Shown: in pieces, positions 34,839-61,775 of the stretch
Layout: each line of letters begins with the position of its first letter
Position numbering within the stretch: position 1 is the stretch's first letter
Assembly (NCBI GenBank): GCA_903952205.1
Contig: CAJBEZ010000008.1
Location: 1-64,000, forward strand
Length of the DNA: 64,000 nucleotides
Reading direction: 5' to 3'
Source: an uncultured Desulfomonile sp.
Lineage (GTDB): Bacteria > Desulfobacterota > Desulfomonilia > Desulfomonilales > Desulfomonilaceae
Position numbers and translations under genes: made by a program
Notes under the pieces: generated by a model
What the model saw: the letters and a program-made list of their open reading frames with translations, nothing else
Database searches by the model: none
What the model was told of the DNA's origin: nothing

Positions 34839-36827
34839 ATGCAGGATAAACTCCAAAATCTACGTCTTCCTCTGGATGGTCATATTGACCTGACTTACCG
34901 ATGCAATAACCACTGCCGGCACTGCTGGTTGTGGTTACCGGCGAACTTAAGAGAACAAAAAGAAGAACTAACTTTTGATGAAATAAAACGTATCGTTGAT
35001 GAAGCCCGGTCCATGGGTTGCCGTAAATGGAGTATATCCGGTGGTGAGCCAATGCTGCGGCCCGATTTCCCGGAAATCTTCGACTATGTTACCAGTAAGG
35101 CCGTCTCATATAGCCTCAACACCAATGGGACCCTCATTACCCCAGAAATGGCAACGATCCTGAAGCGCAAGGGAACGAAAATGGTCGCCCTATATGGGGC
35201 CACCAAGGAAACCTATGACCATGTCACCCGCCATCCCGGCGGCTTTGAAAAGGTCATGCGGGGCTTCAGTTACCTGAAGGAAGCAGGGGCCGGGTTCATA
35301 GTGCAGTTGATCCCTATGCGGGACAACTGGCATGAATGGGACGAGATGCAGGAACTGGCGCAGTCTCTGAGCAGTCATTGGCGTATCGGCGCCCCATGGC
35401 TGTATCTGTCGGCAAGCGGTGATCCGAGGGTAAATGAGGAGATCAGGAGGCAGAGGCTTGACCCGAAGGATGTGGTGGAACTCGATAAACCCGACATGAC
35501 TTATGATGAAAACATGGGGGGAGAAACCGGGCCCCATTCATGCCAAAACTGTGAAGATGACTATCTGTTCGCGAGTTGTATAAAGGGTCGTCGTGATTTT
35601 CACGTAGATCCCTATGGAAAGATGAGTTTCTGCGCTTTTCTGAAAGATCCAGCGTTTCGCTATGACTTACGCCAGGGTAGTTTTGAAGATTGCTGGGAAC
35701 GCTTTATCCCGTCGTTATCGGTCAAGGCGCAGCTTGGACGGGAATATGTCGAGAACTGTGGCGCCTGTGAAAACCGGCGGGACTGCCGGTGGTGCGCTGT
35801 GTACGCCTGGCTCGAACACAGGCGATTTTCCGCGCCTGTCGAACATCTGTGTGAAGTGGCGACTGCAAACAGTCGTTTCAAGAAAGACTGGAGGACCTCA
35901 CATCGCCGTTTTTATAAAATTGCAGGGATAACTATTCAGGTTGACAGCGATCTGCCCTTCACAGATCAGACCTTTCACCCCAAGTTTGCGGCCTTCCGCG
36001 TTGACGGACCCGGTCCGGACACGGTGAGCATACGTCATCACTTCAGTCTGCCCGACCTGACAGGCAAGGATTTGGGTCGCGAGATGTACCGCAAACCGCC
36101 CTGGGCCATATACAGGCAAAACTCCTCCTATATCTATCTCGGCATCTCGCCTCAACCTGACGACCCTACACTGCACAGGGCCGTGACTTTCAATAACGAC
36201 CATTCCAGGGCAAAGATATACAACAATCAGAAAGAAGTCTGGCTGAATGGCGATCTACATTCTCTGACGCTTTTCCCTTCGGACCAGGTCTTGATCGCCC
36301 GCCTCCTGGCTGACCGGCAGGGTTGTTACTTCCATTCCGCGGCCGCCATCGTAAATGGCGCTGGAATGATCTTTATTGGCCACTCAGAGGCCGGTAAGAC
36401 CACGACGACGCATTTGCTGACGGATGCGAGCCGACCCGGAAACGGCAGTTCGAACCTTCAGGTTGAGATCCTCTGCGATGACCGGAACATAGTCCGGCGC
36501 CTCGAGGACGGCTGGTGGGTTTACGGCACATGGAGTCACGGTGATAGCCCTCTAATCTCCGCTAACGGAGCGCCTATGCACGCGATCCTCTTCCTTGAGC
36601 AGGGCGACGAAAACACGCTGACCCCGCTTATTGACCGGAAAGAGATAGTCCGGCGCCTCCTGGGGTGTGTAGTCAAATCATTTGTCACAGCGGACTGGTG
36701 GAACAAAACCCTCGACACGATTGAGCGGATGTCACACGAGGCCCCCTGCTACGTCATGCGGTTCGACAGGACAGGAAAGATTGTGGAGGAGCTAGTCAAA
36801 CTGGCCGACCGTCCCTCGTTCATGTGA
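34839..36827 (+). CDS. radical SAM/SPASM protein fused to an HPr-kinase-like domain
   Basis: A 662-residue two-part protein. Residues 15 to 210 are a radical SAM domain with TYRCNNHCRHCW (CxxxCxxC for the 4Fe-4S/SAM cluster, Cys22, 26, 29) and the SISGGEPMLRPDF segment. Residues 230 to 345 carry a Cys-rich SPASM domain for auxiliary clusters (CQNC, CGACENRRDCRWC, HLCEV). From about residue 350 the chain turns into a fold like HPr kinase/PEP carboxykinase, with P-loop FIGHSEAGKTTTTHLL near 512 and CDDRNIVRR after it. HPr-kinase-like enzymes phosphorylate the C-terminal Ser in some lasso peptide pathways, but fusion to a radical SAM enzyme is unusual to me. I use the ATG at 34839; a TTG 21 bases upstream is possible. 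First gene of the peptide-modification cluster. Confidence 0.85.
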   Translation: MQDKLQNLRLPLDGHIDLTYRCNNHCRHCWLWLPANLREQKEELTFDEIKRIVDEARSMGCRKWSISGGEPMLRPDFPEIFDYVTSKAVSYSLNTNGTLITPEMATILKRKGTKMVALYGATKETYDHVTRHPGGFEKVMRGFSYLKEAGAGFIVQLIPMRDNWHEWDEMQELAQSLSSHWRIGAPWLYLSASGDPRVNEEIRRQRLDPKDVVELDKPDMTYDENMGGETGPHSCQNCEDDYLFASCIKGRRDFHVDPYGKMSFCAFLKDPAFRYDLRQGSFEDCWERFIPSLSVKAQLGREYVENCGACENRRDCRWCAVYAWLEHRRFSAPVEHLCEVATANSRFKKDWRTSHRRFYKIAGITIQVDSDLPFTDQTFHPKFAAFRVDGPGPDTVSIRHHFSLPDLTGKDLGREMYRKPPWAIYRQNSSYIYLGISPQPDDPTLHRAVTFNNDHSRAKIYNNQKEVWLNGDLHSLTLFPSDQVLIARLLADRQGCYFHSAAAIVNGAGMIFIGHSEAGKTTTTHLLTDASRPGNGSSNLQVEILCDDRNIVRRLEDGWWVYGTWSHGDSPLISANGAPMHAILFLEQGDENTLTPLIDRKEIVRRLLGCVVKSFVTADWWNKTLDTIERMSHEAPCYVMRFDRTGKIVEELVKLADRPSFM

Positions 36828-36866
36828 TACAACGACAAATGTAATGGAGATAGCCAAGAGGCAAAA

Positions 36867-37037
36867 ATGACGCAACGTTACACAATCCAGGCTGTTATTT
36901 ATCCGGGGGATGAAACGGTGCAGAATCTTAGAGACGCTATTCATCTACATTTGGAGGGAGAGGATCTGGTTGATATGGGACTGGTTCCGCACGCTCCACT
37001 ATTGGCAACTATGGAGATGGATCCGATATATGCCTGA
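36867..37037 (+). pseudogene. HicB-like antitoxin remnant
   Basis: A 56-codon frame. It opens like HicB antitoxins (YTIQAVIYPGDE), lacks the central core and then gives their C-terminal part (TVQNLRDAIHLHLEG and PHAPLLATMEM). The middle ~25 residues have been lost in frame. No HicA toxin gene is next to it. It sits in the gap between the first and second radical SAM genes and is probably a leftover of insertion, though a short peptide could still be made. AAGAGG lies 6 bases before the ATG. Confidence 0.5.
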
Positions 37038-37061
37038 ATGCCCGATGAACTGTGACGGAAA

Positions 37062-38225
37062 ATGACATACACAAAGAAACTCAAACCCCATGAATTTGTC
37101 TTTCCGGCGGGTAAAGGGCCGAGACTGTCGCAAATAGACATTGAACTAACGGAGCGCTGCAACAACAACTGTATCCACTGCCTCATAAATCGTCAGGAAA
37201 ACGACGAACACGCTCACTCCCGTGAGATGGATACGGCATTCGTAAAGGATCTCCTAAAACAGGCAGCGGACCTTGGCTGCCTCGCTGTCCGTTTCACCGG
37301 CGGCGAACCCTTGTTGAGAGAAGATTTCGCTGAATTATATATGTTTGCCCGCCGCCTGGGTATGCATGTTATTCTGTTTACCAACGGCCGCCTTATCACA
37401 CCTGAACTGGCCAGACTCTTTGCCAAATATCCACCGGGCAAACCTATAGAAGTCAGTGTATACGGTATGAGGCCTGAAAGCTATGACGCCGCTGCAGGGA
37501 AAAAAGGGGCTCACGCGGAATTTTGGCGTGGTATGGAACTGCTTCGCGAGCATAAGGTCTGGTTTGTGGTGAAGAGCAGTATATTGCCGCCCAACCGTGA
37601 TGACATGGTGGATTTTGAGCAGTGGCTGACAGAGATTGATGGCGAGGATAGCCAGCCACGCTATGCAATGAATTTTGATTTGAGGGCGCGGCGTGATGAT
37701 CCCGGAAAAAACGAACGTATCAGGCGGTTGAGGCTATCGCCGGAAGAGACGATGAGCGTGCTGAAGCGCAGCCCAATTTATGTGGATAGCATGCGGGAGT
37801 TCTGCGGGAAATTTATGAGTCCGTCCGGGAATAAACTGTTTTCCTGCGGCGCCGGTCACGGGACCTGCGTCGACGCTTATGGCAAGGCACAGATGTGCAT
37901 GGGCCTGCGAGATCCTGAAACAGTTGTTGACTTGCATGAAGCAACATTGAAGGCTGCTTTGGAACATTCATTTCCAAAACTGCGAGAAATCAGGGCGACC
38001 GATCCTGAATATCTGGCGCGTTGCGCCAGGTGCTTCCTGAAGGGCCTGTGCGAACAGTGCCCGGCCAAATCCTGGATGGAGCATGGCACGCTTGATACGC
38101 CGGTCGAGTATCTATGCGGCTTAGCCCATGCCCAAGCTCTATATCTAGGTCTGATCACAGAAAACGAAAAAGCGTGGGAAGTTGAGAATTGGCGTGAGCG
38201 GATTGATCTTTTCAGCCGAAAATAA
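37062..38225 (+). CDS. radical SAM/SPASM peptide-modifying enzyme 2
   Basis: A 387-residue enzyme. The radical SAM cluster motif is TERCNNNCIHC near residues 31 to 41, with VRFTGGEPLLREDF after it. The C-terminal SPASM region is rich in Cys (SCGAGHGTCVDAYGKAQMC, CARCFLKGLCEQC, YLCGLAHA). Such enzymes form thioether, C-C or epimerised bonds in ribosomal peptides. It differs clearly from the other two radical SAM proteins of the cluster, so it probably does a different step. It leads directly (21 bases) to the PqqD-like gene. Confidence 0.9.
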   Translation: MTYTKKLKPHEFVFPAGKGPRLSQIDIELTERCNNNCIHCLINRQENDEHAHSREMDTAFVKDLLKQAADLGCLAVRFTGGEPLLREDFAELYMFARRLGMHVILFTNGRLITPELARLFAKYPPGKPIEVSVYGMRPESYDAAAGKKGAHAEFWRGMELLREHKVWFVVKSSILPPNRDDMVDFEQWLTEIDGEDSQPRYAMNFDLRARRDDPGKNERIRRLRLSPEETMSVLKRSPIYVDSMREFCGKFMSPSGNKLFSCGAGHGTCVDAYGKAQMCMGLRDPETVVDLHEATLKAALEHSFPKLREIRATDPEYLARCARCFLKGLCEQCPAKSWMEHGTLDTPVEYLCGLAHAQALYLGLITENEKAWEVENWRERIDLFSRK

Positions 38226-38246
38226 ATCACTTAGGAGGTCGCTTGA

Positions 38247-38552
38247 ATGGATGACGTGACGTTCGATATGGTTTGTTTCCCCTCCGAGGACATTGTGGCA
38301 AGAGAAATCGAAGGCGAGTTGATCATTGTGCCGCTTGTCGCCGGTATCGGCGACACGGATGATGAACTCTATACGTTGAACGAGACAGGCAAAGCCATCT
38401 GGTCCAGATTAGACGGAAAAAGAACACTTCGGGCCATATCAGAGGAATTGGCTACGGAATTCAACGCTCCTCTCGAGGAAGTCGGAAAAGATTTGTCCGG
38501 TCTGATGAATGAGCTTATACGTCGGAAGATGATCCTCGTTCAGTCTGTTTGA
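38247..38552 (+). CDS. PqqD family peptide-binding (RRE) protein
   Basis: A 101-residue PqqD-like protein: an N-terminal beta part (DIVAREIEGELIIVPL) followed by the helical LNETGKAIWSRLDGKRTLRA and ISEELATEFNAPLEEVGKDL. In PqqD and related RRE domains this fold binds the precursor's leader peptide and presents it to the radical SAM enzyme. Strong ribosome site TAGGAGG. It sits between two radical SAM genes, supporting a role as common chaperone for the pathway. Confidence 0.92.
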   Translation: MDDVTFDMVCFPSEDIVAREIEGELIIVPLVAGIGDTDDELYTLNETGKAIWSRLDGKRTLRAISEELATEFNAPLEEVGKDLSGLMNELIRRKMILVQSV

Positions 38553-38586
38553 ACCTGTTTTGGTTGTGGGACAACCCTGTAACAAA

Positions 38587-39561
38587 ATGAAATCAAAGGA
38601 TGTAATTGATTGTGATATTTCCTCATGCCCGTTCCGTATAGCAGATCAGAATCGCTGCTCCTTGCCGGACTGGCAGTATCACAGGATGGAATCTACGGGC
38701 GGCAGCCGCATCACGAATAGTCTCGTTGTTGAATCATTGGAAATCGGTCGGGCGCTTGCGGATCATGGCAGGGCCAAATTTCGCGCCGGTGGCACGTGCA
38801 TGTATCCGTGTGTCCAGCCCGGCGATACACTCCATATCGAAGCCCGCCCCATCGATGACATCCCTGTTGGCAGTATCACGGTGTTCCGCAGAAACGGCCG
38901 TCTCTTTGGACATCGGGCAATCGCCAGTGGTGTCGATGATGACGGACCATACATCGTCACACGTCCCGACCGTAGCGATCAAGGCAGCGATGGACCTATC
39001 CGTGAACAGAATATACTTGGTGTTGTTTCGAAGATCGATCGTAAGGGTAAACAGGTTTCCACGGCGCCAATTGCCCTCAGGGGCGCTGCAAGGGCGAGCG
39101 CCATGATTCTGGAGTGGTGGGACGTTAGTGCCCGGTCGCTGGTGGTCAGTGGGCTTGAAAGAGTTCAACGTTTGAGCGTTTATGAAAACATAGCGCCGCT
39201 CTGGTTCAAACTTTTTAGACCTCAGATCCGTTTTGAGGTACGAACCCCGCTCAAACCGAGGCAATCCCATGACTTGTACAGATTGTTTCCGCCAGATGAA
39301 TTCGATGTGTCTCTGCCCGTTCAGCAAGGGAAACCGGTTATGGAATGGACGTTGGCGCTCTATCTCAACGCCGGGAAATCCCCCGCAGCATGGGCAACCC
39401 TGATCCGCAGCCCGGAGGGATGCCCCATCGGGATGGGGTGGCATATTGCGAACAGGAGAATGCAGCTCCGTTATCAAGGGATTGGGCTGGACAATGCCGT
39501 TACCGGCAAGGCAGGCGAGATTTTGGCCCGAACTGGTATGGCCATCATACAGGAGGCGTAA
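38587..39561 (+). CDS. signal-peptidase-like protein with Cys replacing Ser, and GNAT-like C-terminus
   Basis: A ~324-residue protein. Residues 65 to 165 look like an S24/S26 signal peptidase fold: RAGGTCMYPCVQPGDTL aligns with the GxSMxPxLxxGD motif. Cys71 stands where the catalytic Ser should be. GHRAI (His109) matches the Ser/His type of signal peptidases, and TRPDRSDQGSD gives nearby Asp residues. No membrane helix is visible. From about residue 195 on, WATLIRSPEGCPIGMGWHI and MQLRYQGIGLDNAV resemble a GNAT acetyl-CoA loop. The N-terminus has four extra Cys. The start is uncertain (ATG 38587 or TTG 38560). It may be a cytosolic processing protease/acyltransferase of the pathway, or a non-catalytic relative. 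Confidence 0.7.
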   Translation: MKSKDVIDCDISSCPFRIADQNRCSLPDWQYHRMESTGGSRITNSLVVESLEIGRALADHGRAKFRAGGTCMYPCVQPGDTLHIEARPIDDIPVGSITVFRRNGRLFGHRAIASGVDDDGPYIVTRPDRSDQGSDGPIREQNILGVVSKIDRKGKQVSTAPIALRGAARASAMILEWWDVSARSLVVSGLERVQRLSVYENIAPLWFKLFRPQIRFEVRTPLKPRQSHDLYRLFPPDEFDVSLPVQQGKPVMEWTLALYLNAGKSPAAWATLIRSPEGCPIGMGWHIANRRMQLRYQGIGLDNAVTGKAGEILARTGMAIIQEA

Positions 39562-40668
39562 ATGTATCCCACCTCAACCATGCAAATCCAGGATTTCCCG
39601 CTCTGGGACAAACTCAAGGAGCGGCGGGCCATCATGTCATTTGACCTGGAGATTACAGCCCGCTGCAATCTCCACTGCGGCCATTGTTATATCAATCTCC
39701 CCGCTAACGACCAGGAGGCCCGGGCAAAGGAATTGACCGTTCAGGAGATAGGGGGAATCGCCGATCAGGCGGTTGCCCTTGGGGCGGTTTGGGCGCTTAT
39801 CTCCGGCGGAGAACCACTCCTGCGTCCGGACTTTCCTGAAATTTACATGACCCTCAAGAGAAAGGGACTCCTCGTTTCTGTATTCACAAATGCGACCCTG
39901 TTGCGGGAGGATCACATTTCATTGTTGAAAAAATACCCGCCCAGGGATATCGAAGTTACGGTGTACGGCGCCTCTTCTGAGACGTACGATAGTGTCACCC
40001 GACGTCCGGGCGCCTTTGCCGCCTTCACGCATGGTCTGAACCGACTCCTCGAAAGCGGCGTCAAGGTCCGCCTCAAGGCAATGGCCCTACGTTCGAATTT
40101 CCACGAATTGCCTGAGATTGCGGCCTTCTGCCGATCCCATACGAAGGATTACTTTCGTTTTGACCCCCAGTTGCATTTGCGTTTCGACAGGGATGAGGGA
40201 CGCAACGCGGAAATCATGGCTGAACGCCTGACGCCTGAGGAGATCGTAGCGCTCGAGAGGGCCGATGGCGACCGTTTTACAGCCTTACAGAAAAACTGCG
40301 ACACACTGATCAGCGATGAGTTTACCCACTACGGCTGTGATCATCTCTTCCACTGCGGGGCAGGCAATGGCAGCTTCAATGTCGGTTACGACGGAAAATT
40401 CAGGCTATGTTCTTCCCTGTGGGCGCCGCAGACACTGTATGATCTGCGGAAAGGGACACTGCGGGATGCATGGGAACAGTTTGTGCCGCAGGTCCGGGAT
40501 ATGCGCTCGCAACGCCCTGAGTTCCTGGACCGGTGCCGTCGGTGCTCCATAATCAATCTATGCCTGTGGTGTCCGGCCCATTCATATCTCGAAACGGGCG
40601 AAATGGACACTGTTGTAGATTACTTTTGCCGGGTCGCGCACGCACGAGCAGCGGCCATAAGTGGCTGA
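39562..40668 (+). CDS. radical SAM/SPASM peptide-modifying enzyme 3
   Basis: A 368-residue enzyme. ITARCNLHCGHCYINLP (CxxxCxxC near residues 34 to 41) and ALISGGEPLLRPDF mark the radical SAM domain. The SPASM region has YGCDHLFHCGAGNGSFNVGY, CRRCSIINLCLWC and YFCRVAHA. It starts right after the stop of the signal-peptidase-like gene, with its ribosome site (AGGAGG) inside that gene, so the two are coupled. The region around the third Cys set resembles enzyme 2, suggesting common ancestry. Confidence 0.9.
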   Translation: MYPTSTMQIQDFPLWDKLKERRAIMSFDLEITARCNLHCGHCYINLPANDQEARAKELTVQEIGGIADQAVALGAVWALISGGEPLLRPDFPEIYMTLKRKGLLVSVFTNATLLREDHISLLKKYPPRDIEVTVYGASSETYDSVTRRPGAFAAFTHGLNRLLESGVKVRLKAMALRSNFHELPEIAAFCRSHTKDYFRFDPQLHLRFDRDEGRNAEIMAERLTPEEIVALERADGDRFTALQKNCDTLISDEFTHYGCDHLFHCGAGNGSFNVGYDGKFRLCSSLWAPQTLYDLRKGTLRDAWEQFVPQVRDMRSQRPEFLDRCRRCSIINLCLWCPAHSYLETGEMDTVVDYFCRVAHARAAAISG

Positions 40669-40760
40669 CGCCAGACAAGACTTTTTTCGTCGGTCTCCGA
40701 AAGGAATGATCGGGGGGCAACCCGCCCCGCAACCAGAATCAGATAGTAGGGAAATGAGGC

Positions 40761-40859
40761 TCACGCCGGGACGGTCAAGGTCCCTCTCGGACAGATCTTA
40801 ACCTTCTTTTCTATCTCAGCGGCCTTCTTGGTCTTGGCCACCTCTAGGCTCGCTGCCAT
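40761..40859 (-). CDS. possible 32-residue small protein overlapping a binding-protein gene
   Basis: A minus-strand frame starting at the ATG at 40859 has AAGGAG 7 bases upstream. Its product is Lys-rich at the start and ends KVKICPRGTLTVPA, slightly like an AbrB-type strand. The start lies inside the 3' end of the binding-protein gene, and the ribosome-site bases are also Lys-Glu codons of that gene. Could well be coincidence. Confidence 0.2.
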   Translation of the reverse strand: MAASLEVAKTKKAAEIEKKVKICPRGTLTVPA

Positions 40860-41889
40860 AGATCTGCTCCTTGGTGTACACACCACACTTGATGAGTGTC
40901 TCGAAGATGTTCTCCCTGGTGATCAGAGTAACTGGAGTGACAACAGTCGGAACATCCACGGCGCCGTTGAAGATCATCCTGTCAACTTTGATTATCTCTG
41001 TCACCTTTTTTTCCGGATTTCGCGCGAGCTTGACCGCGACCTCGGCAGCCGTTTCCGCCATTTTGTCGAGAGAATATCTCACATCAATGGCTTGTATCCC
41101 TTGGGCCAAATACCGAATGTTCTCGAGGTCGGCTTCTACGCCGGCAACGAAAACTTTCCGAGTATCATCCAATCCCCGTTGTTTCAATGCCGATATCACG
41201 CCTCTCGCCAACGCGTCACTGTTACAAATGAATGCGTCCACTTTATCCCCGTACTTGGTAAGCAACTTGTTTGCTGTTTTTGAGGCTTGGTCAGGATCCC
41301 AATTCGGATGAGTTTGCTGGATTACAAGCTCCAGCCCTTTATGAGCCCTAACAGTTTCCAGCGGGCTTTCAGTAAGAAACGTGACGTCGGAGCTACCCGG
41401 CGGCCCTAGAATAAATGCGACCCTACCTTCTATTTTGCCGGATTTCCGGGCCTTGAACCATTCCAGCATCGCATCGCACTGCAGTTTTCCTGCGGTCCAC
41501 ATATCCTCAAGGACCATCATGTCTATTGGGCCGTTCATAGGGAGACTGCTGTATCCAACCACTTTCACCCCCCGCTCATTGGCCATTCTCACCAGAATGA
41601 AAGCAATATCCGTATTTACGGGCTCCATAACAATCACTTTCACACCATGATCCAACATGCTCTCGAATTTTGATATCTGCTCTATCTGACTGTCATGACA
41701 GGACTCAAAGATCGTTACCGCACCTAATTCCTTAACCTTTGCAAGAAAAGCGGTCTTTTCGGTTTGATAACGTTCCTGCTGCATGGAACTCAGAACTAAT
41801 CCTATCTTCACCTTGTCAGATGGAAACCCCGGACAGGAAATGAGCGCTATTGCCGCCAGCAATACTGCCATAATAATCGGCTTCTTCAT
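40816..41889 (-). CDS. sugar-type ABC substrate-binding lipoprotein, no transporter adjacent
   Basis: A 357-residue periplasmic binding protein of the RbsB/LacI-like group. The signal peptide ends in a lipobox-like LISC near residue 19. The mature part has KIGLVLSSMQQERYQTEKTA, VKVIVMEPVNTDIAFILVRM, AFILGPPGSSDVTFL and DAFICNSDALARGVISALK, all typical. The ATG at 41889 is preceded by AAGG. No permease or ATPase follows, so it is an orphan. It might feed a distant transporter, or serve as a ligand sensor tied to the peptide locus (inference). Confidence 0.85.
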   Translation of the reverse strand: MKKPIIMAVLLAAIALISCPGFPSDKVKIGLVLSSMQQERYQTEKTAFLAKVKELGAVTIFESCHDSQIEQISKFESMLDHGVKVIVMEPVNTDIAFILVRMANERGVKVVGYSSLPMNGPIDMMVLEDMWTAGKLQCDAMLEWFKARKSGKIEGRVAFILGPPGSSDVTFLTESPLETVRAHKGLELVIQQTHPNWDPDQASKTANKLLTKYGDKVDAFICNSDALARGVISALKQRGLDDTRKVFVAGVEADLENIRYLAQGIQAIDVRYSLDKMAETAAEVAVKLARNPEKKVTEIIKVDRMIFNGAVDVPTVVTPVTLITRENIFETLIKCGVYTKEQIYGSEPRGGQDQEGR

Positions 41890-41985
41890 TTGTAACACCT
41901 TAAAAGGCGACGAAAAAATCCATTGCCATACCCTGTTATGAGCCCGTTCTTTCGAGAATGCGTCATACGCCCCGGTTTCCCTCGA

Positions 41986-43200
41986 TTAATGTCTTGAAGA
42001 CCATGGTGGAACAGGAAATATATACGGCTCCGATGCGAATTCCCTGGGCCACACTACCTCTAAGATTCCAACTTGCCACTGGCTGAGAAACATTCGCACA
42101 TGATTCTGCTGTTTCAGATTCCCGCTGGAAACGAACCGGACCGGTCCTAATACCGAGTTCATGTCGGTATCTACCAGGGAGCGACGGACCCCTTCACGAT
42201 TAAAAACCCCTTCAGGAGTTAAATCTGAAGTTCGATTGAGGGCGTCAGCAATGACTTGTACGCAAGCGTACGCCACCGCTCCAAAGTATCTGGGGGCAGC
42301 AAGAAACCGCTCTATGAAGTCGCTGTAGAATTTTTCAACCCCTGGATAGGGTAGACGACCGTCCCAAAAGTCAATTATAAAGACATAATCAGACGCCTCA
42401 CCAGCTCCTAACATAAATTTAGGCATTACGAAACTGCGTCCGCCACCTACAAAAAGCTTCGGGTTGATATCCATGTCCTGGAATTGAAGCATTAAGATAG
42501 CTCCCTCATTGTCTGATGAAGCTATAAAAATAACATCGGGCATAGCTTGCTTGACCCTCTCAAGGATTGGCCTGAAATCCGACATCCCAAGTTCGAAGCT
42601 CTCTCTCCCTACTATATTCCCTCCCATTGCAGTGAAATCTTTCGACAGAACTTCCGCCGCCTTCACCCCAAAAACTGTATTCTCGTAGACCAGGGCTAGG
42701 GTCCTGGCGTTTACCACTTCTTTCAAAAAGGACAGGAGCGGCCCAAAGCGTTGGCTCAAAGGCGGAGCAATATGAAACACATAGTTTCCATCAAGTTCGG
42801 GGGCTTGCCGGTCGGAAGCGGTTGTCTCCAGACACGGGACCCTTCGTTCCTGCGCGATTTTCTCTATCTCCAACGAAGCCTCGAATCTACCAGACCCAAT
42901 CAAAGCAATTACACCGTCCTCTGAAATCAATTTCTCAGCCGCTGACCGGGCTAGGTCCGGCTGGTCGTTGTCATCTTCAATGATGATGCTAACTTGGCGC
43001 CCTCTGATTCCTCCAGCCCTGTTAATATCATCCACTGCCATTATAAGCGCATTCTTCTCAATCTCTCCGATTTGACTTCGTTCTCCGGTCAAGGGGATCA
43101 CAGCCCCGAGCTTCAATGAATCTCCCATCACGGATGAATCCCCACACATCAATATGGCGAGAGCGATAAGAATCGGAGACCACCACATGATCCCTCTCAT
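41986..43200 (-). CDS. branched-chain amino acid-type ABC substrate-binding protein, orphan
   Basis: A ~404-residue LivK/type I periplasmic binding protein: LKLGAVIPLTGERSQIGEIE, DDINRAGGIRGRQVSIIIED, VIALIGSGRFEASLEIEKIA, then PDVIFIASSDNEGAILML. The ATG at 43200 puts a signal peptide (hydrophobic residues 5 to 17) first; a frame 29 codons longer exists. No Liv permease or ATPase genes are near. It is transcribed away from the first export cassette, from a shared 260-base intergenic stretch. Confidence 0.85.
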   Translation of the reverse strand: MRGIMWWSPILIALAILMCGDSSVMGDSLKLGAVIPLTGERSQIGEIEKNALIMAVDDINRAGGIRGRQVSIIIEDDNDQPDLARSAAEKLISEDGVIALIGSGRFEASLEIEKIAQERRVPCLETTASDRQAPELDGNYVFHIAPPLSQRFGPLLSFLKEVVNARTLALVYENTVFGVKAAEVLSKDFTAMGGNIVGRESFELGMSDFRPILERVKQAMPDVIFIASSDNEGAILMLQFQDMDINPKLFVGGGRSFVMPKFMLGAGEASDYVFIIDFWDGRLPYPGVEKFYSDFIERFLAAPRYFGAVAYACVQVIADALNRTSDLTPEGVFNREGVRRSLVDTDMNSVLGPVRFVSSGNLKQQNHVRMFLSQWQVGILEVVWPREFASEPYIFPVPPWSSRH

Positions 43201-44707: not shown

Positions 44708-44708
44708 A

Positions 44709-46913: not shown

Positions 46914-46973
46914 TGACAGGATTGCCCCGCTCACATGAGTGAGGTTCCTGCTGTTTGAATCGAGGAAACACAT

Positions 46974-53578: not shown

Positions 53579-54826
53579 ATGGAACAGCTATTCAGACAAG
53601 ATGTCATGGATCGACTTAACTCCCCGGAACGTCTAGATGAACTATTAAAGATAACCTCGCCTCGAGGCTGGATAGCATTGTTATCCCTGGCGCTGGTAAT
53701 CCTTACAGCTCTAGCCTGGGGCATATATGGCACGATTTCTACCAAGGTGGATGGTTCAGGCATATTCATCGACCCGGAGGGAGTTCACCCTGTAATATCG
53801 CTCGGTTCAGGAAGGCTTAGTTCGATCCGGGTCAAAGTCGGCGACATTGTAGAAGTCGGTCAGTTGGTGGCTACTATGACCAACCCTGATGTCCAGAAAC
53901 AACTGGACAATCAGAAGATCATTTTATCAGTCCTGGAAAAGGAGTATGCCCAGGAAAAGAATCTGATGGAGAAGGAGTCTGAGTCCAAGCGGCGAGTTCT
54001 TGGGGCCCAAAGAGACAATATAAACAGTTCAATCAAGATTCAGGATAGCAAGGCTAAATGGCTTAAAGATAGGCTTAGCGCATACGAAGACCTGTTCGCT
54101 GAGGGGTATGTCCTCAAACAGAATGTTGTCCAGACCAGGCTGGATCTGGATAACACCATGCTTGAGTCCGAGAAACTCCAGAATGAACTGGGAAACAATC
54201 ACCTTCAGGAAGTAGAACTTCAGGAAAGCCTCCAGCAGAGAATTTTCAAACAGAAATTCGACATTGAACAGGCTAAAGGCAAAGAGGAACTCCTTGAACG
54301 TCAGCTCGAAGAGTCAACTCAGGTTTTTAGCCCGATCAAGGGCACTGTGATCTCACTGGAAGCAATGGAAGAATCCATGATCCAGACAGGAATGACAATA
54401 CTTAATGTGGAACCCCTTGAACCAGGTCTGAAAGTCTTCATGAGCGTTTCAGCGATGAAAGGCAAAAAAATTCAGCCGGGCATGACTGCGGAAATTACCC
54501 CGACCACTGTTAAGAGGGAAGAATACGGATATATATTTGGAACGGTCATAGACATTAGCGAATTTCCAATTACTGCTGATAGCCTCATGAGATTGTTCAA
54601 CAATCGTAGTTTTGTGGAGGACGCCATCAGGCTTGGTCCTCTAACCTCGGTCAACATAGAGCCGGTGAAGGACACAACCACGCGGAGTGGGTTCAAATGG
54701 TCCAGCCAGAAGGGGGCAAAGGTGCTGGTTACTGTGGGCACGCTTTGTTCCGGCGAGGTTGTGGTCAAACTTCAGTCCCCAATATCATTGGTGATTCCAA
54801 AACTGAAAGAATGGATAGGCCAATAG
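53579..54826 (+). CDS. NHLM-type export membrane fusion protein (HlyD-like), cassette 2
   Basis: A ~415-residue paralogue of the cassette 1 adaptor: an N-terminal helix (residues 28 to 48), the lipoyl half SLGSGRLSSIRVKVGDIVEV, a coiled coil of about 130 residues and the end region TPTTVKREEYGYIFGTVIDI, which closely matches its counterpart. I start at the ATG at 53579 by comparison with cassette 1, since a frame 12 codons longer has no match there. The next gene's TTG lies one base after the stop. Confidence 0.85.
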   Translation: MEQLFRQDVMDRLNSPERLDELLKITSPRGWIALLSLALVILTALAWGIYGTISTKVDGSGIFIDPEGVHPVISLGSGRLSSIRVKVGDIVEVGQLVATMTNPDVQKQLDNQKIILSVLEKEYAQEKNLMEKESESKRRVLGAQRDNINSSIKIQDSKAKWLKDRLSAYEDLFAEGYVLKQNVVQTRLDLDNTMLESEKLQNELGNNHLQEVELQESLQQRIFKQKFDIEQAKGKEELLERQLEESTQVFSPIKGTVISLEAMEESMIQTGMTILNVEPLEPGLKVFMSVSAMKGKKIQPGMTAEITPTTVKREEYGYIFGTVIDISEFPITADSLMRLFNNRSFVEDAIRLGPLTSVNIEPVKDTTTRSGFKWSSQKGAKVLVTVGTLCSGEVVVKLQSPISLVIPKLKEWIGQ

Positions 54827-54827
54827 C

Positions 54828-57026
54828 TTGCTGGACTCTATAAAAAACTGGTTCCTCACACAAAATACAGCTAAACCCCGGCGTGTCCGTACTCCAACCG
54901 TACTGCAAATGGAGGCCGCTGAATGCGGAGCGGCTTGTATGACCATGATTCTGGCCCACTATGGCAGATGGGTCCCGCTGGACAAGGTTCGGCTGGACTG
55001 CGGCGTTTCCCGTGATGGGAGCAAAGCGAGTTACGTTGTCAAAGCGGCTGAAGGCTATGGCCTGTATGCGCAGGGATTACGGGTAAGCCCTGAAAGTATT
55101 AAGGAACTCAAATTCCCGCTAATAGCGTTCTGGAATCTTAACCACTTCGTGGTAGTCGAGGGTTTTGACAAAAAGCGCTGGTTTTTGAACGATCCTGCTG
55201 AAGGCCCGCGCACCGTCACGTATGAAGAATTCGACAGAAGTCTCAGTGGAGTGGCTCTTACCTTTGACAAGAGTCCGCAATTTCAGGAAGGAGGGCAGAA
55301 ACCCAGGCTTTTCAATTCCTTGAAGAAAAGGGCAATCGGGATGTGTCCGGCTCTGGCTTACGCCCTTCTGACTGGGCTACTCCTTACATTTATCGGACTC
55401 GTCATCCCCACCTTCACAAAAATATATGTCGACCACTACCTGATGGACAGACAGGTGGATTGGCTCAAAGCCCTGTTGTGGATAATGCTGATCACAATTT
55501 TCCTGAATATGGGTGTCACATGGCTACAACAGAACATTCTGCTGAGATTAAATTTTAAGCTCGCACTAAGCAGTTCGTCGGCGTTCTTTAACCACCTGTT
55601 GCGTCTTCCTGTTGATTTCTTTTTTCAACGATACAGCGGCGAGATTCAGTCCAGGGTAGCGCTCAATGATAGAGTAGCTTCACTATTATCGGGGCAGCTA
55701 TCCTCTACCATGTTGCACTGTCTTACTTCCGTCTTCTTCGTTGCAGTCATGCTTAGTTACAGTGTTTTCCTTACCGCAATTGGCGTTGTCGGAGCGATTC
55801 TCAACCTAATGGCGCTTGAAGGGGTTTCCCGCAAACGAAGAGACCTTAACAAACGCCTGTTGCAGGAAAAAGGCAAACTGACCGGCGTGACTATGTCCGG
55901 CATTTACATGATAGAGACACTCAAATCAGCAGGAAGGGAGGACGACTTCTTTGCTCGCTGGTCGGGCTATCAGGCAAAGACTACAAGCGCAGGCCAGGAA
56001 CTTGGTTTTTGGTCGGCAATGCTGGACAGGGTGCCTCCTTTTCTGGCGTCATTGAACGCCATCTCCGTTCTTGGATTTGGAGGTGTTCTGGTGATGCAGG
56101 GTTTTTTGACTTTGGGTGACATGATGGCGTTTCAGGCTTTATTGTCAGGTTTTATCCAACCTATCAACAACCTGGTAGGGCTGGGAAGTCAGTTGCAGGA
56201 AATCGAAGGAGACCTTGGCAGGCTTGACGATGTTTTGGCAAATCCTGTCGATGAGGAACTCGCAAAGGCCGAAGCCGTAAAACTGACACCGGATCTTGCT
56301 GAAAAACTCAATGGAAAAGTTGAAATCAACAACATTTCTTTTGCCTACGGCCGGTTTGACAAACCTTTCATCAACCAGTTCAGCCTTACCATAAATCCCG
56401 GAAGCAGGGTCGCTCTGGTCGGAGCTTCCGGCAGCGGTAAATCCACTCTCGGAAATCTCGTCGCCGGATTATACACCCCGACTCAGGGAGAAATCCGGTT
56501 TGACGGCAAACTGAGGTCGGAAATCCCCCGGCTGGTTATGGCCAATTCCCTTGCCAAGGTGGATCAGGACGTTATTCTTTTTGAGGGCTCAATCAGGGAC
56601 AACATTGCTCTATGGAATGACAGCGTCACTGACACGGCAATTATTCAGTCGGCCAAGGACGCATGTATCCACGATGTGATCAGTTCCCGGCCACTGGGGT
56701 ATGAGGACCAAATCATTGAAGCGGGAAGGAATTTCAGCGGCGGCCAACGGCAACGTCTGGAAATAGCCAGAGCTTTGGCTCTGGAGCCGTCAATTCTGAT
56801 CCTTGATGAGGCGACCAGCGCCCTCGATCCGCTCACGGAAAAAATCATAGATGATAATTTACGTCGCAGAGGCTGTTCATGCCTGATTATTGCGCACAGA
56901 CTCAGCACAATACGTGATAGCGATGAGATCATTGTTTTAAAAGGCGGCCAGGTTATCGAAAGAGGCTTGCACGATGAGCTTGTGGCACTCAATGGCTACT
57001 ATGCCGAATTGCTGAAGGATACATAG
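54828..57026 (+). CDS. C39 peptidase/ABC exporter (NHLM-type), cassette 2
   Basis: A 732-residue paralogue of the cassette 1 exporter, strongly similar along its length. The C39 domain retains Cys (QMEAAECGAACMTMILAHYG), His (LNHFVVVEG) and Asp (LNDPAEGPR). The ATPase has GASGSGKST, FSGGQRQRLEIARALALEP and ILILDEATSALD. A TTG start is needed to cover the N-terminus; it is coupled to the HlyD-like gene. The active site is intact, so this is not a degenerate copy. Confidence 0.92.
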   Translation: MLDSIKNWFLTQNTAKPRRVRTPTVLQMEAAECGAACMTMILAHYGRWVPLDKVRLDCGVSRDGSKASYVVKAAEGYGLYAQGLRVSPESIKELKFPLIAFWNLNHFVVVEGFDKKRWFLNDPAEGPRTVTYEEFDRSLSGVALTFDKSPQFQEGGQKPRLFNSLKKRAIGMCPALAYALLTGLLLTFIGLVIPTFTKIYVDHYLMDRQVDWLKALLWIMLITIFLNMGVTWLQQNILLRLNFKLALSSSSAFFNHLLRLPVDFFFQRYSGEIQSRVALNDRVASLLSGQLSSTMLHCLTSVFFVAVMLSYSVFLTAIGVVGAILNLMALEGVSRKRRDLNKRLLQEKGKLTGVTMSGIYMIETLKSAGREDDFFARWSGYQAKTTSAGQELGFWSAMLDRVPPFLASLNAISVLGFGGVLVMQGFLTLGDMMAFQALLSGFIQPINNLVGLGSQLQEIEGDLGRLDDVLANPVDEELAKAEAVKLTPDLAEKLNGKVEINNISFAYGRFDKPFINQFSLTINPGSRVALVGASGSGKSTLGNLVAGLYTPTQGEIRFDGKLRSEIPRLVMANSLAKVDQDVILFEGSIRDNIALWNDSVTDTAIIQSAKDACIHDVISSRPLGYEDQIIEAGRNFSGGQRQRLEIARALALEPSILILDEATSALDPLTEKIIDDNLRRRGCSCLIIAHRLSTIRDSDEIIVLKGGQVIERGLHDELVALNGYYAELLKDT

Positions 57027-59978
57027 ATGGTCGACAATTCATCCAAAACCAATTTAGTAAAAAGCGACCAAATAGCATCCATTCTTGAGCACTTGGCGGG
57101 ATCTGGTCAAACATTGAAACTGGAAGGCAATCGATCAATCGGGCTAAACAAACCCGGCAGTGTTTATTTTGTAGGATCGGGATATATCGACATTTTTGCA
57201 ATACGCAATCCAGACGCTGATGTCCTGGGGCCAAGACTCAACATTATGCGTGTTGAGCCTGGACAATTGATATTTGGACTGAGCGCCGATGAAAAGTTAC
57301 ATGATATTGGCTTTATTGGAGTATCAGGGGGGCGCACAGAACTTTTGGAAATGACCATTGAAGACTTCCTGGGGCAGGTTGGTTCCGCTGATGTCAAGGC
57401 GCCTTTTATTTCAATGATTGAAACGTGGGTTAAGGGGCTTTTAGAAAACCTCTGCCCTCGATCGGGACAAACCCCTGTGGCCTTTAAGGAAATTGCGCCC
57501 GGATCATCTGTGGAAATTACCGATCAGGCTATCCTGGGGGTGCGTCATGGATTGGTTTGGGTCATTACTGCAAATGGAACAGCCGGCTTTATGGGTCGAT
57601 CCGAGCTTTCGGACTTTTCCAAAGACAGGATATTGCCGGTTAGCAAACATTCGTGGATAGTCGCTGACCACTGTTCAATTTCAATCTCAACTACTGTTGA
57701 TCTGATTCAGGATAATAAGGGGCTTGCCAAAGCTTTGACGGATTTCCATGGACTCGTTGTCCTTCTGGTCAGACTGCAGTATCAACAAAGAATTACCGAA
57801 CAGACCAGAATGCTCGTACAGGAGCAGGATCAGGAAAAGAGACTCGTTGAGTCCGCCCTTGAAACACTGAGTTCAGCCATAATTAAAGATCGGAGGCTTT
57901 TCAAGGACTTTAGGGGAAAACCTTTACTGGACGCCTGTCAAATGGTTGGAACACACATTGGAATTACTTTTGTACAAAAACCGGACGATCAAAAAGGCTC
58001 AGTAGATCCTTTAAGAAACCTGTGTGAAGCCTCTCGTGTTCGCATCCGGGAGGCGCTCCTCACCGGCAAATGGTGGGCCGAGGATCATGGCTCGTTCCTG
58101 GGATTCACTGTCGACGATAATAGACCCGTGGCTATCCTTTGCATGAAACCCGGATTTTATATTCTTGGCGACCCGCAGGACGGATCAAAGACAAGGATAA
58201 ACGCACAGCAGGCGGCTCGAATTAAACCTGTGGCGTATACATTTCAGGTCCCTTTTCCGGAAAAAGCGCTGAATGCGTGGGATCTCGTCAAATTCTCCTT
58301 AAAAGGATCGGCGCCGGATATCTGGAGGAACTTGGGTCTTGGAATAATGGCCGGGTTGCTTGGATTGATCACGCCTATCGCTACAGGTATTCTCATCGAT
58401 GACATAATACCCAGTGAAGATCGTTTCCAGTTACTTGGGCTTTCGGCCGCTTTTGTCGTCTCAGCTATCTGCATCACCATGTTTCAGTTCGTTCAGGCGC
58501 TATCAGTTTTACGAATTGAAGGCAAGGCCGGCTTCCTCGTCCAGTCTGCCGTGTGGGACCGACTTCTGGCTCTTCCTGTTACTTTTTTCAGGCAATACCC
58601 AGCCGGCGACCTCGCCAACAGGACACTGGGCATAGATCAGATGCGCCAGTTAATATCCACTCAGGCGATGTCCACCATTCTGGCCGCTGTTTTTTCGGTC
58701 TTTCAGGTGGCCCTGCTATTTTATTACAGCATCGAGCTTGCCATAGTAGGAATTGTTTTAACTCTGATATCGCTCGTAGTTCCAATAATATGTCTGGTTT
58801 TGCAACTTAAATACCAGAGGCCTCTTTACGATTTAGTGGGAAAAATCCAGGCTTTCAATCTTCAGGTCATAAACGGCATTGCGAAGCTTCGGATAAGCGC
58901 AGCGGAAAAAAGGATGTTTCATCGTTGGGCCGGCATGTTTTCGAGGCAAAAAGAGCTATCCTACAAATCCGGGATCGTGGGAAACGTCCTCGGGGTATCT
59001 GTAAGCTCACTTACACTAGCCGGGACATTAGTGATGTTTACGTGGTCCTTCTTCAGTATGGACAAGGCCTTGCACTCTATGTCCCCCGGTAATTTCATGG
59101 CGTTCATAAGCGCTTTCACAAGTGTCCTGGGTAGCGCTTTTTCAACTTTGACGACGATTTTTCCCATGATCCAGGTTAAACCCATCTATGAGAGAACAAA
59201 ACCCATACTGAAAGCTTTGCCCGAGGTCAAACAAACCGCTGCTTATCCAGGGGAGTTGTCGGGACATATCGAACTGAGTCAGGTATCTTTTCGCTATAGC
59301 CCATCCGGCCCACTGGTAATCAAAAACTTCTCGCTTGAGATTATGCCTAGGGAATTTGTAGCCCTCGTCGGCCCTTCGGGTACGGGTAAGTCAACTTTGT
59401 TACGTTTACTCCTTGGTTTCGACCAACCTGAATCTGGGGCCATCCTTTACGATGGGCAGGACCTGACTAAACTCGACGTAAAAGCGGTTCGCCGCCAGAT
59501 CGGCGTAGTGCTGCAAAACGGACTGCTGTTCTCCGGCAGCATATTCGAGAATATCGTCGGCTCTTCACCTTTGACCCTGAACGAGGCATGGGAGGCCGCG
59601 CGTATGGCGCAACTCGAAGACGATATAAAAAACATGCCTATGGGCATCAACACCGTCATCGGCGAAGGTGGCAGCGGACTATCAGGTGGCCAGAGACAAA
59701 GGCTGCTGATCGCCCGGGCGTTGGTGAGGCATCCAAGGATTCTATTCTTCGATGAAGCGACCAGCGCTCTGGATAACGAAAGACAGGAACTTGTCAGCGA
59801 AAGTATTGAAAAACTTGAGGCCGCAAGGCTTGTTCTGGCGCACAGACTCAGCACGATTAAAAACGCTCACAAAATTTGCGTTATAGTTGAAGGCGAACTT
59901 GCTGAACTCGGAAATTATGATGAACTGATGGTAAAGCAGGGATTTTTCTATGATTTGGCCAAACGCCAGATCGTGTAA
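57027..59978 (+). CDS. second NHLM-type ABC transporter, cassette 2
   Basis: A 983-residue paralogue of the 971-residue protein of cassette 1. The N-terminal ~400 residues are the accessory region (for example KWWAEDHGSFLGFTVDD). The membrane domain follows, then the ATPase with GPSGTGKST, LSGGQRQRLLIARALVRHP and ILFFDEATSALDN. It begins directly after the stop of the C39 exporter, so the two should be made together. Confidence 0.9.
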   Translation: MVDNSSKTNLVKSDQIASILEHLAGSGQTLKLEGNRSIGLNKPGSVYFVGSGYIDIFAIRNPDADVLGPRLNIMRVEPGQLIFGLSADEKLHDIGFIGVSGGRTELLEMTIEDFLGQVGSADVKAPFISMIETWVKGLLENLCPRSGQTPVAFKEIAPGSSVEITDQAILGVRHGLVWVITANGTAGFMGRSELSDFSKDRILPVSKHSWIVADHCSISISTTVDLIQDNKGLAKALTDFHGLVVLLVRLQYQQRITEQTRMLVQEQDQEKRLVESALETLSSAIIKDRRLFKDFRGKPLLDACQMVGTHIGITFVQKPDDQKGSVDPLRNLCEASRVRIREALLTGKWWAEDHGSFLGFTVDDNRPVAILCMKPGFYILGDPQDGSKTRINAQQAARIKPVAYTFQVPFPEKALNAWDLVKFSLKGSAPDIWRNLGLGIMAGLLGLITPIATGILIDDIIPSEDRFQLLGLSAAFVVSAICITMFQFVQALSVLRIEGKAGFLVQSAVWDRLLALPVTFFRQYPAGDLANRTLGIDQMRQLISTQAMSTILAAVFSVFQVALLFYYSIELAIVGIVLTLISLVVPIICLVLQLKYQRPLYDLVGKIQAFNLQVINGIAKLRISAAEKRMFHRWAGMFSRQKELSYKSGIVGNVLGVSVSSLTLAGTLVMFTWSFFSMDKALHSMSPGNFMAFISAFTSVLGSAFSTLTTIFPMIQVKPIYERTKPILKALPEVKQTAAYPGELSGHIELSQVSFRYSPSGPLVIKNFSLEIMPREFVALVGPSGTGKSTLLRLLLGFDQPESGAILYDGQDLTKLDVKAVRRQIGVVLQNGLLFSGSIFENIVGSSPLTLNEAWEAARMAQLEDDIKNMPMGINTVIGEGGSGLSGGQRQRLLIARALVRHPRILFFDEATSALDNERQELVSESIEKLEAARLVLAHRLSTIKNAHKICVIVEGELAELGNYDELMVKQGFFYDLAKRQIV

Positions 59979-60338
59979 AAAGTCGTCTGAACAATTAGCG
60001 GGTTTTTCGGCGTTTCCTACATTTGGACATCCTCCCTCCAGACAAATTATGGCATGGTATATTATATTAATTGGTCATACCCAATAATGTATAAGTTACA
60101 TTAAGAAATTATTATAATATATTGACTAATCATGGTTTTTATGAATATTATTATGAATGAAGCCTTGAAGGGAATCCCAAATAACCTGTTCAATAAGTCG
60201 TAGTATTAATTGATGATTCACTTAAAACCGCACGAAGTGGCTCTTCAGCAGCGTCTGCCTGTAACCGGGCAGGTCGGGAGACAAAACCGGACCATGCCGA
60301 ACGGCTCGGTGTGGGGATTGCGTATCAAAAGGTTCGTA
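59979..60338. other. AT-rich gap before the second TolC gene
   Basis: Past the ABC gene an AT-rich run from 60045 to 60200 carries a promoter-like pair (listed separately). Open frame exists from 60210 to the TolC start, but that stretch has no ribosome site or signal-peptide character. No second precursor peptide could be found here. Confidence 0.4.
60122..60151 (+). promoter_or_regulatory. promoter-like pair before TolC of cassette 2
   Basis: TTGACT at 60122 to 60127 and TATTAT at 60146 to 60151, spaced 18 bases. It would let tolC be read independently of the ABC genes. The AT-rich setting makes false matches likely. Confidence 0.35.
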
Positions 60339-61775
60339 ATGGGCTGGGCAAAACTTCGACTAATTGTCGCCGCCATTGTGTTTGTCTTTTCAATATTAGC
60401 GGAAGCCCAAATATTTAAGCCTGTGGCTTTTGCATCCACTCCGACGCCTATCCCTGAGATGGATATGGCGAATTACGCGAACACAAAATTGTCTGTTCGT
60501 GACGCTATTGATCTATCTATCAGGAGGAATTTCAGCCTTCGCAGTCAAGCCCTCACTATCGCCCAAAAAGAAAACCTCAAATGGGCCTCATATTCAGATT
60601 TATTTCCGCAGCTAAGTGTTACATACGATTCCGAGATAAACCGTTACCGTCAAGCGTCGAACAGCGGAATTTTCCAGGGGATTCATCCCAGCCGATGGAC
60701 TTATCGTGGCCAAACCAATAACCCCACTTTCCAGCCATTGTATCCTTACCGAATAGACCCTTACAAGCTGATGACCCTTACAGCGACTTTGACCCAGCCC
60801 CTTTACAACGCCGGCCGGCTTGGAAACTCGTACAGGTATGCGATTATGGACGAGATCGCTTCCGGGGTGGATATGGCGACTATGTGCAGAGATCTCACCA
60901 ACTCGGTCATCCAGTCCTTTTATCATGTGGTGTTGGGCAAGAAACTATCGGAGGTTGCCGACGAATCCATACGGGAACTGACGGCTTTCAAAGCAAGGGC
61001 CAAGGCGCTCCTAAAACACGGAGAGGCTTTGAGGGTAGACGTATCGGCCGCTGAAGCGACTCTTGCCAAGTCCAAAGCCAGAAAAAGCAAAGTCGTCACT
61101 GACATGCAGACGGCCATGGCGCAGTTGAATTTTCTTTTGGCTTTTCCTCAAGGCGCCTGTTTGAAACTCGATGACAAGATTTCTTACGAACCGTCACCCT
61201 ACAAATGTCCAGACATATACATGATAGCGGTATCAAATCGTTCAGAGGTAGCGAAAGCCAACATTTCCATTGATCAGGCCAAAGCGCAAGTCAAGATAGC
61301 CCAGTCCTCATTGGCGCCGGATATCAATTTGCAATTGCAGGGACAGAGGCTAAACGACGACTGGAACGTCCTGGATCCCGAGGGGACCAACGATTACTCC
61401 GTCCAGGGAACTCTAGTGTGGGCGTTTGATATCTTCAGAAGCCGTGAAACGGTCCGCAAGACGAGAAACGCCTATGCTCAGACTTTTGTAAACAAGGAAT
61501 ACCTTGTCCAACAGATCATGCGGGAGGTTAACACCGCATATCTGCAGGTAAAGCAGAACGAAGCGAATGTTGAGGAGTTCAGGACAGAGATCAAATGGCG
61601 CAAGGATCAGCTCGACAGGATCAAAGCCATGTACAACCAGCAATTAACCACATACCTAAATGTCATGGATGCAATAGCCAGCCTGGATCTTTCCAAATCC
61701 AACTATTTCACTGCAGCTATCAATCACATCGTCGCAGTGGCTGAACTGGAACGCCAGATGGGGACGCTTAGGTAG
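60339..61775 (+). CDS. TolC family outer-membrane efflux protein, cassette 2
   Basis: A ~478-residue outer-membrane channel. I choose the ATG at 60339 because AAGG lies 6 bases upstream and a signal peptide (LRLIVAAIVFVFSILAEAQ) follows at once; frames reaching 60210 or 60294 are alternatives. Motifs are LSVRDAIDLSIRRNFSLRSQ, LTATLTQPLYNAGRL, FYHVVLGKKLSEVADESI and YSVQGTLVWAFDIFR. It is the closing gene of cassette 2. Confidence 0.88.
   Translation: MGWAKLRLIVAAIVFVFSILAEAQIFKPVAFASTPTPIPEMDMANYANTKLSVRDAIDLSIRRNFSLRSQALTIAQKENLKWASYSDLFPQLSVTYDSEINRYRQASNSGIFQGIHPSRWTYRGQTNNPTFQPLYPYRIDPYKLMTLTATLTQPLYNAGRLGNSYRYAIMDEIASGVDMATMCRDLTNSVIQSFYHVVLGKKLSEVADESIRELTAFKARAKALLKHGEALRVDVSAAEATLAKSKARKSKVVTDMQTAMAQLNFLLAFPQGACLKLDDKISYEPSPYKCPDIYMIAVSNRSEVAKANISIDQAKAQVKIAQSSLAPDINLQLQGQRLNDDWNVLDPEGTNDYSVQGTLVWAFDIFRSRETVRKTRNAYAQTFVNKEYLVQQIMREVNTAYLQVKQNEANVEEFRTEIKWRKDQLDRIKAMYNQQLTTYLNVMDAIASLDLSKSNYFTAAINHIVAVAELERQMGTLR

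Follow-up and report, generated by a model that had tools for sequence, protein, structure and literature searches.

A probable member of a widespread, apparently unnamed RiPP class beside a Nif11-leader pathway in an uncultured Desulfomonile sp.

The window analysed here is the whole 64,000-nucleotide stretch of an uncultured Desulfomonile sp. (assembly GCA_903952205.1, contig CAJBEZ010000008.1, positions 1 to 64,000 of the forward strand). Its region 34842-61775 encodes three radical S-adenosylmethionine (SAM) enzymes of the SPASM type, a PqqD-type protein, an S26-like protein, a short peptide and eight export genes, which an initial annotation had read as one large locus for the modification and export of a ribosomally synthesized and post-translationally modified peptide (RiPP). 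Our analysis suggests that the enzyme genes at 34842-40668 and the peptide gene at 52683 quite probably represent a widespread, apparently unnamed RiPP class, lying beside a second, Nif11-leader (proteusin-like) pathway.

Results

Parts were identified by open reading frame (ORF) listing, translation and Pfam and NCBIfam profile scans. All genes of the initial annotation (the three radical SAM/SPASM genes, PqqD, the S26-like protein with its Cys nucleophile, the precursor-like peptide and the eight export genes) were recovered where it had placed them. The modification genes and the peptide gene are given below, with rSAM for radical SAM protein and RRE for RiPP recognition element.

34842-36827, plus strand: rSAM1, radical SAM/SPASM protein fused to an HprK-like kinase (PF04055, E 8.6e-23)
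37062-38225, plus strand: rSAM2, radical SAM/SPASM protein (PF04055, E 2e-23; identity to relatives 46-65%)
38247-38552, plus strand: PqqD-type RRE, leader-binding protein (PF05402, E 1.9e-14)
38560-39561, plus strand: S24/S26-type protease with Cys80/His118 and a C-terminal GNAT-like domain (alignment and fold matches)
39562-40668, plus strand: rSAM3, radical SAM/SPASM protein (PF04055, E 5.1e-21, and SPASM; identity to relatives 56-74%)
52683-52886, plus strand: precursor peptide of 67 amino acids (precursor family; GGAGG immediately 5' of the ATG)

The PqqD, S26 and rSAM3 genes followed each other nearly without gaps. PqqD scored 54.2 bits against PF05402 (cut-off 23.4) and was the single copy of this family in its own genome (G000). 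Scanning the operon for a promoter and terminator gave no signal over the shuffled background.

The precursor of the window has the leader MTDSKKQWVKPELIVLVRSNPAEAVLGACK, Cys at positions 29, 46, 58 and 61, and Ser at the C-terminus. When 94 distinct precursors were aligned, they shared the leader pattern W-x-x-P-x-L...PEE-x-VL-x-x-CK, in which W, P, L, E, VL and CK were nearly invariant and a G-P pair was frequent. Trp occupied its leader column in 87/90 precursors, Pro in 93/93, Cys in 94/94 and the Lys after that Cys in 91/94, and further Cys columns (92/92, 65/71 and 92/93) brought the aligned Cys to three or four per precursor. Ser or Thr stood at the C-terminus in 89 of the 94 precursors and in 67 of 71 groups when clustered below ~50% identity, while Ser and Thr together made up 16% of the remaining core. 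The core was strongly variable between genomes, and several different precursors were often present in one cluster. No family in the Pfam and NCBIfam scans recognised the class precursors, that of the window included, and neither a Nif11 or NHLP leader nor a GG site was present in 52683-52886.

Precursors were mostly adjacent to the enzyme genes, with 100 of them found in 67 of 86 loci. In L025-L028 a precursor match lay directly 3' of the rSAM3 homologue, with the HprK, rSAM2, PqqD and S26 genes upstream, and L024 carried two precursors between rSAM2 and PqqD. Since the precursor profile had matches in no more than 6 of the 60 relatives scanned as whole genomes, this linkage is far above background; a precursor search of 297 genomes in the phylum gave matches in six, the own genome included. 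Judged from these sequences, the peptide 52683-52886 appears to be a real precursor with relatives in many genomes, mostly beside the same enzymes, which bears out the RiPP assignment of the initial annotation. An RRE-dependent RiPP pathway is expected to have, as found here, a PqqD-like RRE and modifying enzymes beside the gene for a short peptide whose leader is conserved and whose core varies, and the recognition motif of PqqD-like RREs was reported as W/Y/LxxP/L/I (PMC12710340).

The own genome, when searched with 52683-52886, also revealed a paralogous leader copy on another contig (G000:C5:2897). This second precursor (G000:C5:2882-3106, L005) lies on a short contig among unrelated neighbours; since the genome has one PqqD of this family, it would, if used, be served in trans by the operon at 34.8 kb.

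For the survey across phyla, an alignment of seven PqqDs alone served as bait for 84,980 species genomes and gave 80 loci, in which the other parts were then sought with profiles built from the first sequences, independent of the PqqD bait. The precursor was present in 62 of the 80 loci, HprK in 58, S26 in 76 and strong rSAM matches in 75; in the 38 loci that reach 15 kb or more the counts were 35 for the precursor, 31 for HprK, 36 for S26 and 23 for three rSAMs. The usual gene order was rSAM1-HprK, rSAM2, precursor, PqqD, S26, rSAM3. A MsbA-like ATP-binding cassette (ABC) protein of ~600 amino acids followed rSAM3 in 29/81 loci and represents the usual class exporter, a PF14907-type nucleotidyltransferase was present in 24/81, and some loci additionally carried a methyltransferase. 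In five loci (L025:9130-11225, L033, L056, L088 and L096) the precursor was followed by a LynF/TruF/PatF-type prenyltransferase and then a flavin adenine dinucleotide-dependent oxidoreductase, which suggests prenylated class members.

Class loci were found in more than 15 bacterial phyla and in bins assigned to methanogens. The record titles include Chloroflexi, Planctomycetota, Acidobacteria, Aminicenantes, Deltaproteobacteria, Chlorobiaceae, Bacillota, Actinomycetota, Poribacteria, WOR-1, WOR-3, KSB1, Calditrichaeota, Lentisphaerae, Myxococcales, Edwardsbacteria and methanogenic archaea, and a named strain among them is Desulfofustis glycolicus DSM 9705 (L093). No NCBIfam model claims the gene set, consistent with the earlier view that it is not a named class. 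Searches of open-licence papers for SynChlorMet, for PqqD combined with HPr kinase and radical SAM enzymes, and for three-radical-SAM RiPPs gave no description of the class, and an earlier one may exist elsewhere. With precursor relatives beside the same enzymes in many genomes, the genes are more than a chance set. The expectation that the combined set would recur in related genomes was confirmed for rSAM1-HprK, rSAM2, PqqD, S26, rSAM3 and the precursor, but was not borne out for the export cassettes, as described below.

The HprK-like domain at the C-terminus of the first radical SAM protein is a detail beyond the initial annotation. The radical SAM/SPASM part of rSAM1 spans residues ~1-350 and the HprK-like domain ~356-661, with the P-loop GHSEAGKT; this fusion was present in ~40 loci. 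In the AlphaFold (AF2) model of rSAM1 (predicted local distance difference test score 87.8), the first half aligned to anSME, SuiB, SkfB, a sactipeptide maturase and PqqE, and the C-terminal half to ATP-dependent phosphoenolpyruvate (PEP) carboxykinase (Z 12, root-mean-square deviation 6.0-6.1 over 247 residues). HPr kinase and PEP carboxykinase have a common fold. When the domain was searched against the PDB by sequence profile, P-loop proteins made up most of the matches and HprK matched weakly (E 0.21); the fold comparison of the model is the better support for the HprK assignment.

In the S26 protein of the window, Cys80/His118 occupy the place of the usual Ser/His. Among 76 homologues the nucleophile was Ser in 65 and Cys in 11, and the His motif was present in 75. 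PF00717 matched 20 of 25 family members and GNAT 10 of 25, while a Pfam scan of the window copy itself gave no match. The model matched the folds of LexA, UmuD and signal peptidase as well as GNAT enzymes. Cys80, His118 and these fold matches fit an S24/S26 protease, in which a Ser or Cys nucleophile and a His/Lys base sit in the LexA/signal peptidase fold. Several Cys-type copies came from loci without an HprK-fused rSAM1 (L051, L067, L076, L081 and L082).

The export genes of the window form two cassettes (43463-51558 and 53543-61775), each with an NHLM-type HlyD/ABC1/ABC2 set and a generic TolC.

43463-44707, plus strand: cassette 1 HlyD-type adaptor (TIGR03794, 293 bits, cut-off 156)
44709-46913, plus strand: cassette 1 ABC1 with peptidase domain (TIGR03796, 995 bits, cut-off 853)
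46974-49889, plus strand: cassette 1 ABC2 (TIGR03797, 867 bits, cut-off 709)
50125-51558, plus strand: cassette 1 TolC-type outer membrane channel (TIGR01844, E 8.2e-30)
53543-54826, plus strand: cassette 2 HlyD-type adaptor (TIGR03794, 309 bits)
54828-57026, plus strand: cassette 2 ABC1 (TIGR03796, 1020 bits)
57027-59978, plus strand: cassette 2 ABC2 (TIGR03797, 860 bits)
60210-61775, plus strand: cassette 2 TolC-type outer membrane channel (TIGR01844, E 3.3e-19)

HlyD, ABC1 and ABC2 of both cassettes were thus over the NHLM cut-offs. Just past the window, a proteusin-like cluster was found at C8:66485-73246 (L006:6485-13246), with three Nif11-leader peptides (C8:66485-67687; leaders ending VAGG, identical tails AEAECVIIAT), a PoyD-type epimerase (473 bits, cut-off 325) and two rSAM_ocin_1 B12-dependent radical SAM C-methyltransferases; Nif11 and rSAM_ocin_1 were also over their cut-offs. 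An AprA-type methyltransferase-like protein is encoded nearby (L006:14324-15970; PF23525, E 1e-79).

Among the related genomes, an over-cut-off NHLM ABC1 was present in G000, G012 and G056 and as broken copies in G015, with Nif11 in all four, while the class precursor was present in G000, G009, G011, G015, G028 and G040. Since relatives with the Nif11 pathway carry cassette 2, and G012 combines a cassette-2-type exporter with a Nif11/PoyD/B12-radical SAM cluster without the class precursor, the Nif11 peptides C8:66485-67687 are the most likely substrates of cassette 2. In G015, which belongs to another genus of the family, a precursor 94% identical to that of the window lies upstream of a pair of periplasmic binding proteins and a cassette 1 homologue (HlyD 93% identical), so that cassette 1 may be the exporter of the class precursor, a candidate resting on two genomes (G000 and G015). 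An S26 homologue was not found in G015, whose genome is 82% complete.

In the class at large, an NHLM-type HlyD adaptor occurred in 1/80 loci. This locus, L058 (a Methanoregula bin, JAUYTV010000051.1), has three class precursors, PqqD and rSAM3 beside an over-cut-off NHLM ABC1; some of its rSAM genes look broken, and mis-binning or a rare archaeal NHLM system is possible. The grouping of eight NHLM-type genes with the modification enzymes in the initial annotation was not sustained, as the usual class exporter is the single MsbA-like ABC protein and cassette 2 accompanies the Nif11 cluster in relatives. The 27 kb most likely hold two RiPP pathways side by side, not one.

Discussion

One competitor to two neighbouring pathways is a single integrated pathway, in which the two NHLM cassettes work together with the precursor and its three rSAMs and the ABC1 peptidases cleave the leader. 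The position of the precursor between the two cassettes, the single G015 contig with precursor, periplasmic binding protein pair and cassette 1 homologue, and the NHLM ABC1 beside three precursors in L058 are in its favour. We consider it unlikely, however, given the near absence of NHLM-type HlyD from the class loci, many of which have the MsbA-like ABC protein. In G009, G011, G028 and G040 the precursor is present but no NHLM ABC1 is over cut-off, while G012 and G056 have NHLM and Nif11 but not the precursor, and the class leader lacks the GG motif in which the neighbouring Nif11 leaders end. The window cassettes are genuine NHLM systems of the kind found in NHLM/Nif11 and proteusin-type pathways (PoyD, rSAM_ocin_1), whereas the class precursor has another leader and the class is usually without NHLM.

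Similarly improbable is a divergent SynChlorMet cassette (ScmC/D/E/F; TIGR04248-TIGR04251), the nearest named system, which shares PqqD, SPASM radical SAMs and an HprK-like protein but has two rSAMs where the class has three. ScmC, ScmD, ScmE and ScmF were among the better NCBIfam matches, and the true, over-cut-off SynChlorMet locus L134 has an equal cast of PqqD, two rSAMs, HprK-like and S26-like genes, the last two being clear in this one of four SynChlorMet loci. Apart from the third rSAM the gene cast of the window corresponds, but all cut-offs were missed (bits/cut-off: ScmC 20.8/125, ScmD 29.2/100, ScmE at best 80.9/400, ScmF at best 88.8/400), and the tested rSAMs of a Chlorobiaceae and an archaeal bin were likewise below them. 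The precursor family was found in 0/4 SynChlorMet loci read at 14-16 kb; ScmD was over cut-off in 13/395 genomes of the phylum, the own genome not among them, and ScmD-bearing and precursor-bearing genomes barely overlap. A pathway like those of pyrroloquinoline quinone (PQQ) or mycofactocin, dismantling the peptide to a cofactor or metal-binding small molecule, would share the logic of rSAM/SPASM plus PqqD, and rSAM1 reached 111 bits against the model of the mycofactocin maturase, where the cut-off is 265; the variable core and the multiple different precursors per cluster, as against the conserved precursor of a cofactor, make this very unlikely. We give least credence to a lasso-peptide relative, with PqqD as B1 and the HprK and nucleoside triphosphate transferase proteins as tailoring enzymes. 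The lasso precursor models NF033534 and NF033524 were each matched weakly by three of 60 precursors (E 0.003 at best), that of the window matching neither, and paeninodin and pseudomycoidin clusters have in common with the class a W/YxxP-type leader, a discrete PqqD-like RRE, an HprK-like kinase, a C-terminal Ser and, in many class loci, the PF14907 partner. Lasso membership nevertheless fails because the asparagine-synthetase-like cyclase and the transglutaminase-type B2 protease are absent from the operon (34842-40668); three rSAM/SPASM enzymes and four aligned Cys stand instead, which are not lasso features.

Sactipeptides and ranthipeptides (AlbA, SkfB, CteB, PapB) share the SPASM fold and Cys-rich cores with the class, but the class differs by three separate rSAMs per cluster, the fused kinase domain and its leader. 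From the missed SynChlorMet cut-offs and the failed lasso membership, the genes at 34842-40668 with the peptide at 52683 therefore appear, at the level of sequence, to belong to a sister class, a variant of RRE-plus-rSAM RiPPs and not a new principle.

In paeninodin biosynthesis the kinase PadeK places a phosphate on the last residue of the precursor, a Ser, and in pseudomycoidin the nucleotidyltransferase homologue PsmN adds a hexose to the phospho-Ser (PMC9266682). The class clusters also combine an HprK-like kinase with a C-terminal Ser/Thr, and by analogy with PadeK the HprK-like domain would phosphorylate this residue. Going by family knowledge, the leader motif W-x-x-P-x-L would dock on the PqqD-type RRE, which would present the core to the three SPASM enzymes; these would most likely cross-link the conserved Cys by thioether or similar bonds with loss of 2 H each. 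Leader cleavage, perhaps close to VL-x-x-CK, may fall to the S26-like protease (Cys80/His118), and the N-terminus exposed in this way may be capped by the GNAT-like domain. In many genomes the dedicated ABC protein would export the product; in the window NHLM cassette 1 may do so. Tentatively, and with somewhat more doubt than belief, we propose a RiPP class without NCBIfam or Pfam model, spread over more than 15 bacterial phyla and also present in methanogen bins. In it, three SPASM rSAMs would act on one RRE-bound Cys-rich core, the kinase fused to one of them would phosphorylate Ser at the C-terminus, and the N-terminus would be both released and capped by a signal-peptidase-like Ser/Cys-His protease that in some cases is fused to an acetyltransferase.

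Several points weigh against reading the region as a class member, with the mechanism outlined above, beside a Nif11 pathway. The precursor of the window lies 12 kb from the enzyme genes with opposite-strand genes intervening; the operon lacks the class ABC exporter, the methyltransferase and the PF14907 gene, and the sole PF14907 gene of the genome is located away from it. Nearly all class loci are from metagenome bins. The HprK part matches ScmC weakly and stays far under every NCBIfam cut-off, and since the precursors of five loci without a nearby HprK gene (L051, L067, L076, L081 and L082) still end in Ser, this terminal residue does not depend strictly on the kinase. The S26 fold matches were at E 1e-3 or weaker, the chemistry of the Cys cross-links is guessed from the enzyme fold and the conserved Cys, and the NHLM genes in L058 blur the split into two pathways.

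With its recognisable leader, single RRE and fixed gene set, the class offers a handle on a peptide family that has been without a precursor model so far and whose members come mostly from uncultured anaerobes in many phyla, methanogen bins included. If the proposed mechanism is true, one pathway unites SPASM chemistry with C-terminal phosphorylation of the lasso type and leader removal by a signal-peptidase-like protease, and the fused rSAM-kinase becomes directly testable. For annotation, adjacent NHLM exporters should not be assigned wholesale to the class peptide.

Other features of the region

Three further features had no obvious tie to the pathway.

40816-43287, minus strand: two periplasmic binding proteins
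51588-52487, minus strand: beta-barrel-like protein
53089-53379, minus strand: HepT-like ribonuclease fragment (PF01934, E 1.1e-7)

The HepT-like fragment, between the precursor and cassette 2, is probably a toxin-antitoxin remnant. The ORF at 36867-37037 had been taken by eye for a HicB antitoxin remnant, an idea dropped because Pfam gave no match. No precursor gene was found directly after rSAM3 (40668-40816), where several relatives carry one. The 72 bases directly 3' of rSAM3 (window 40664-40735) match inside an ATPase-like ORF of G015 (L111, G015:C529 3901-3970); the precursor position differs between G015 and the window, and the junction 3' of rSAM3 is rearranged. At the end of the window (62461-63999) and in L006:3610-6045, a series of small secreted proteins of related sequence is encoded on the minus strand, preceding an inverse-autotransporter-like protein (PF11924, E 1.1e-4).

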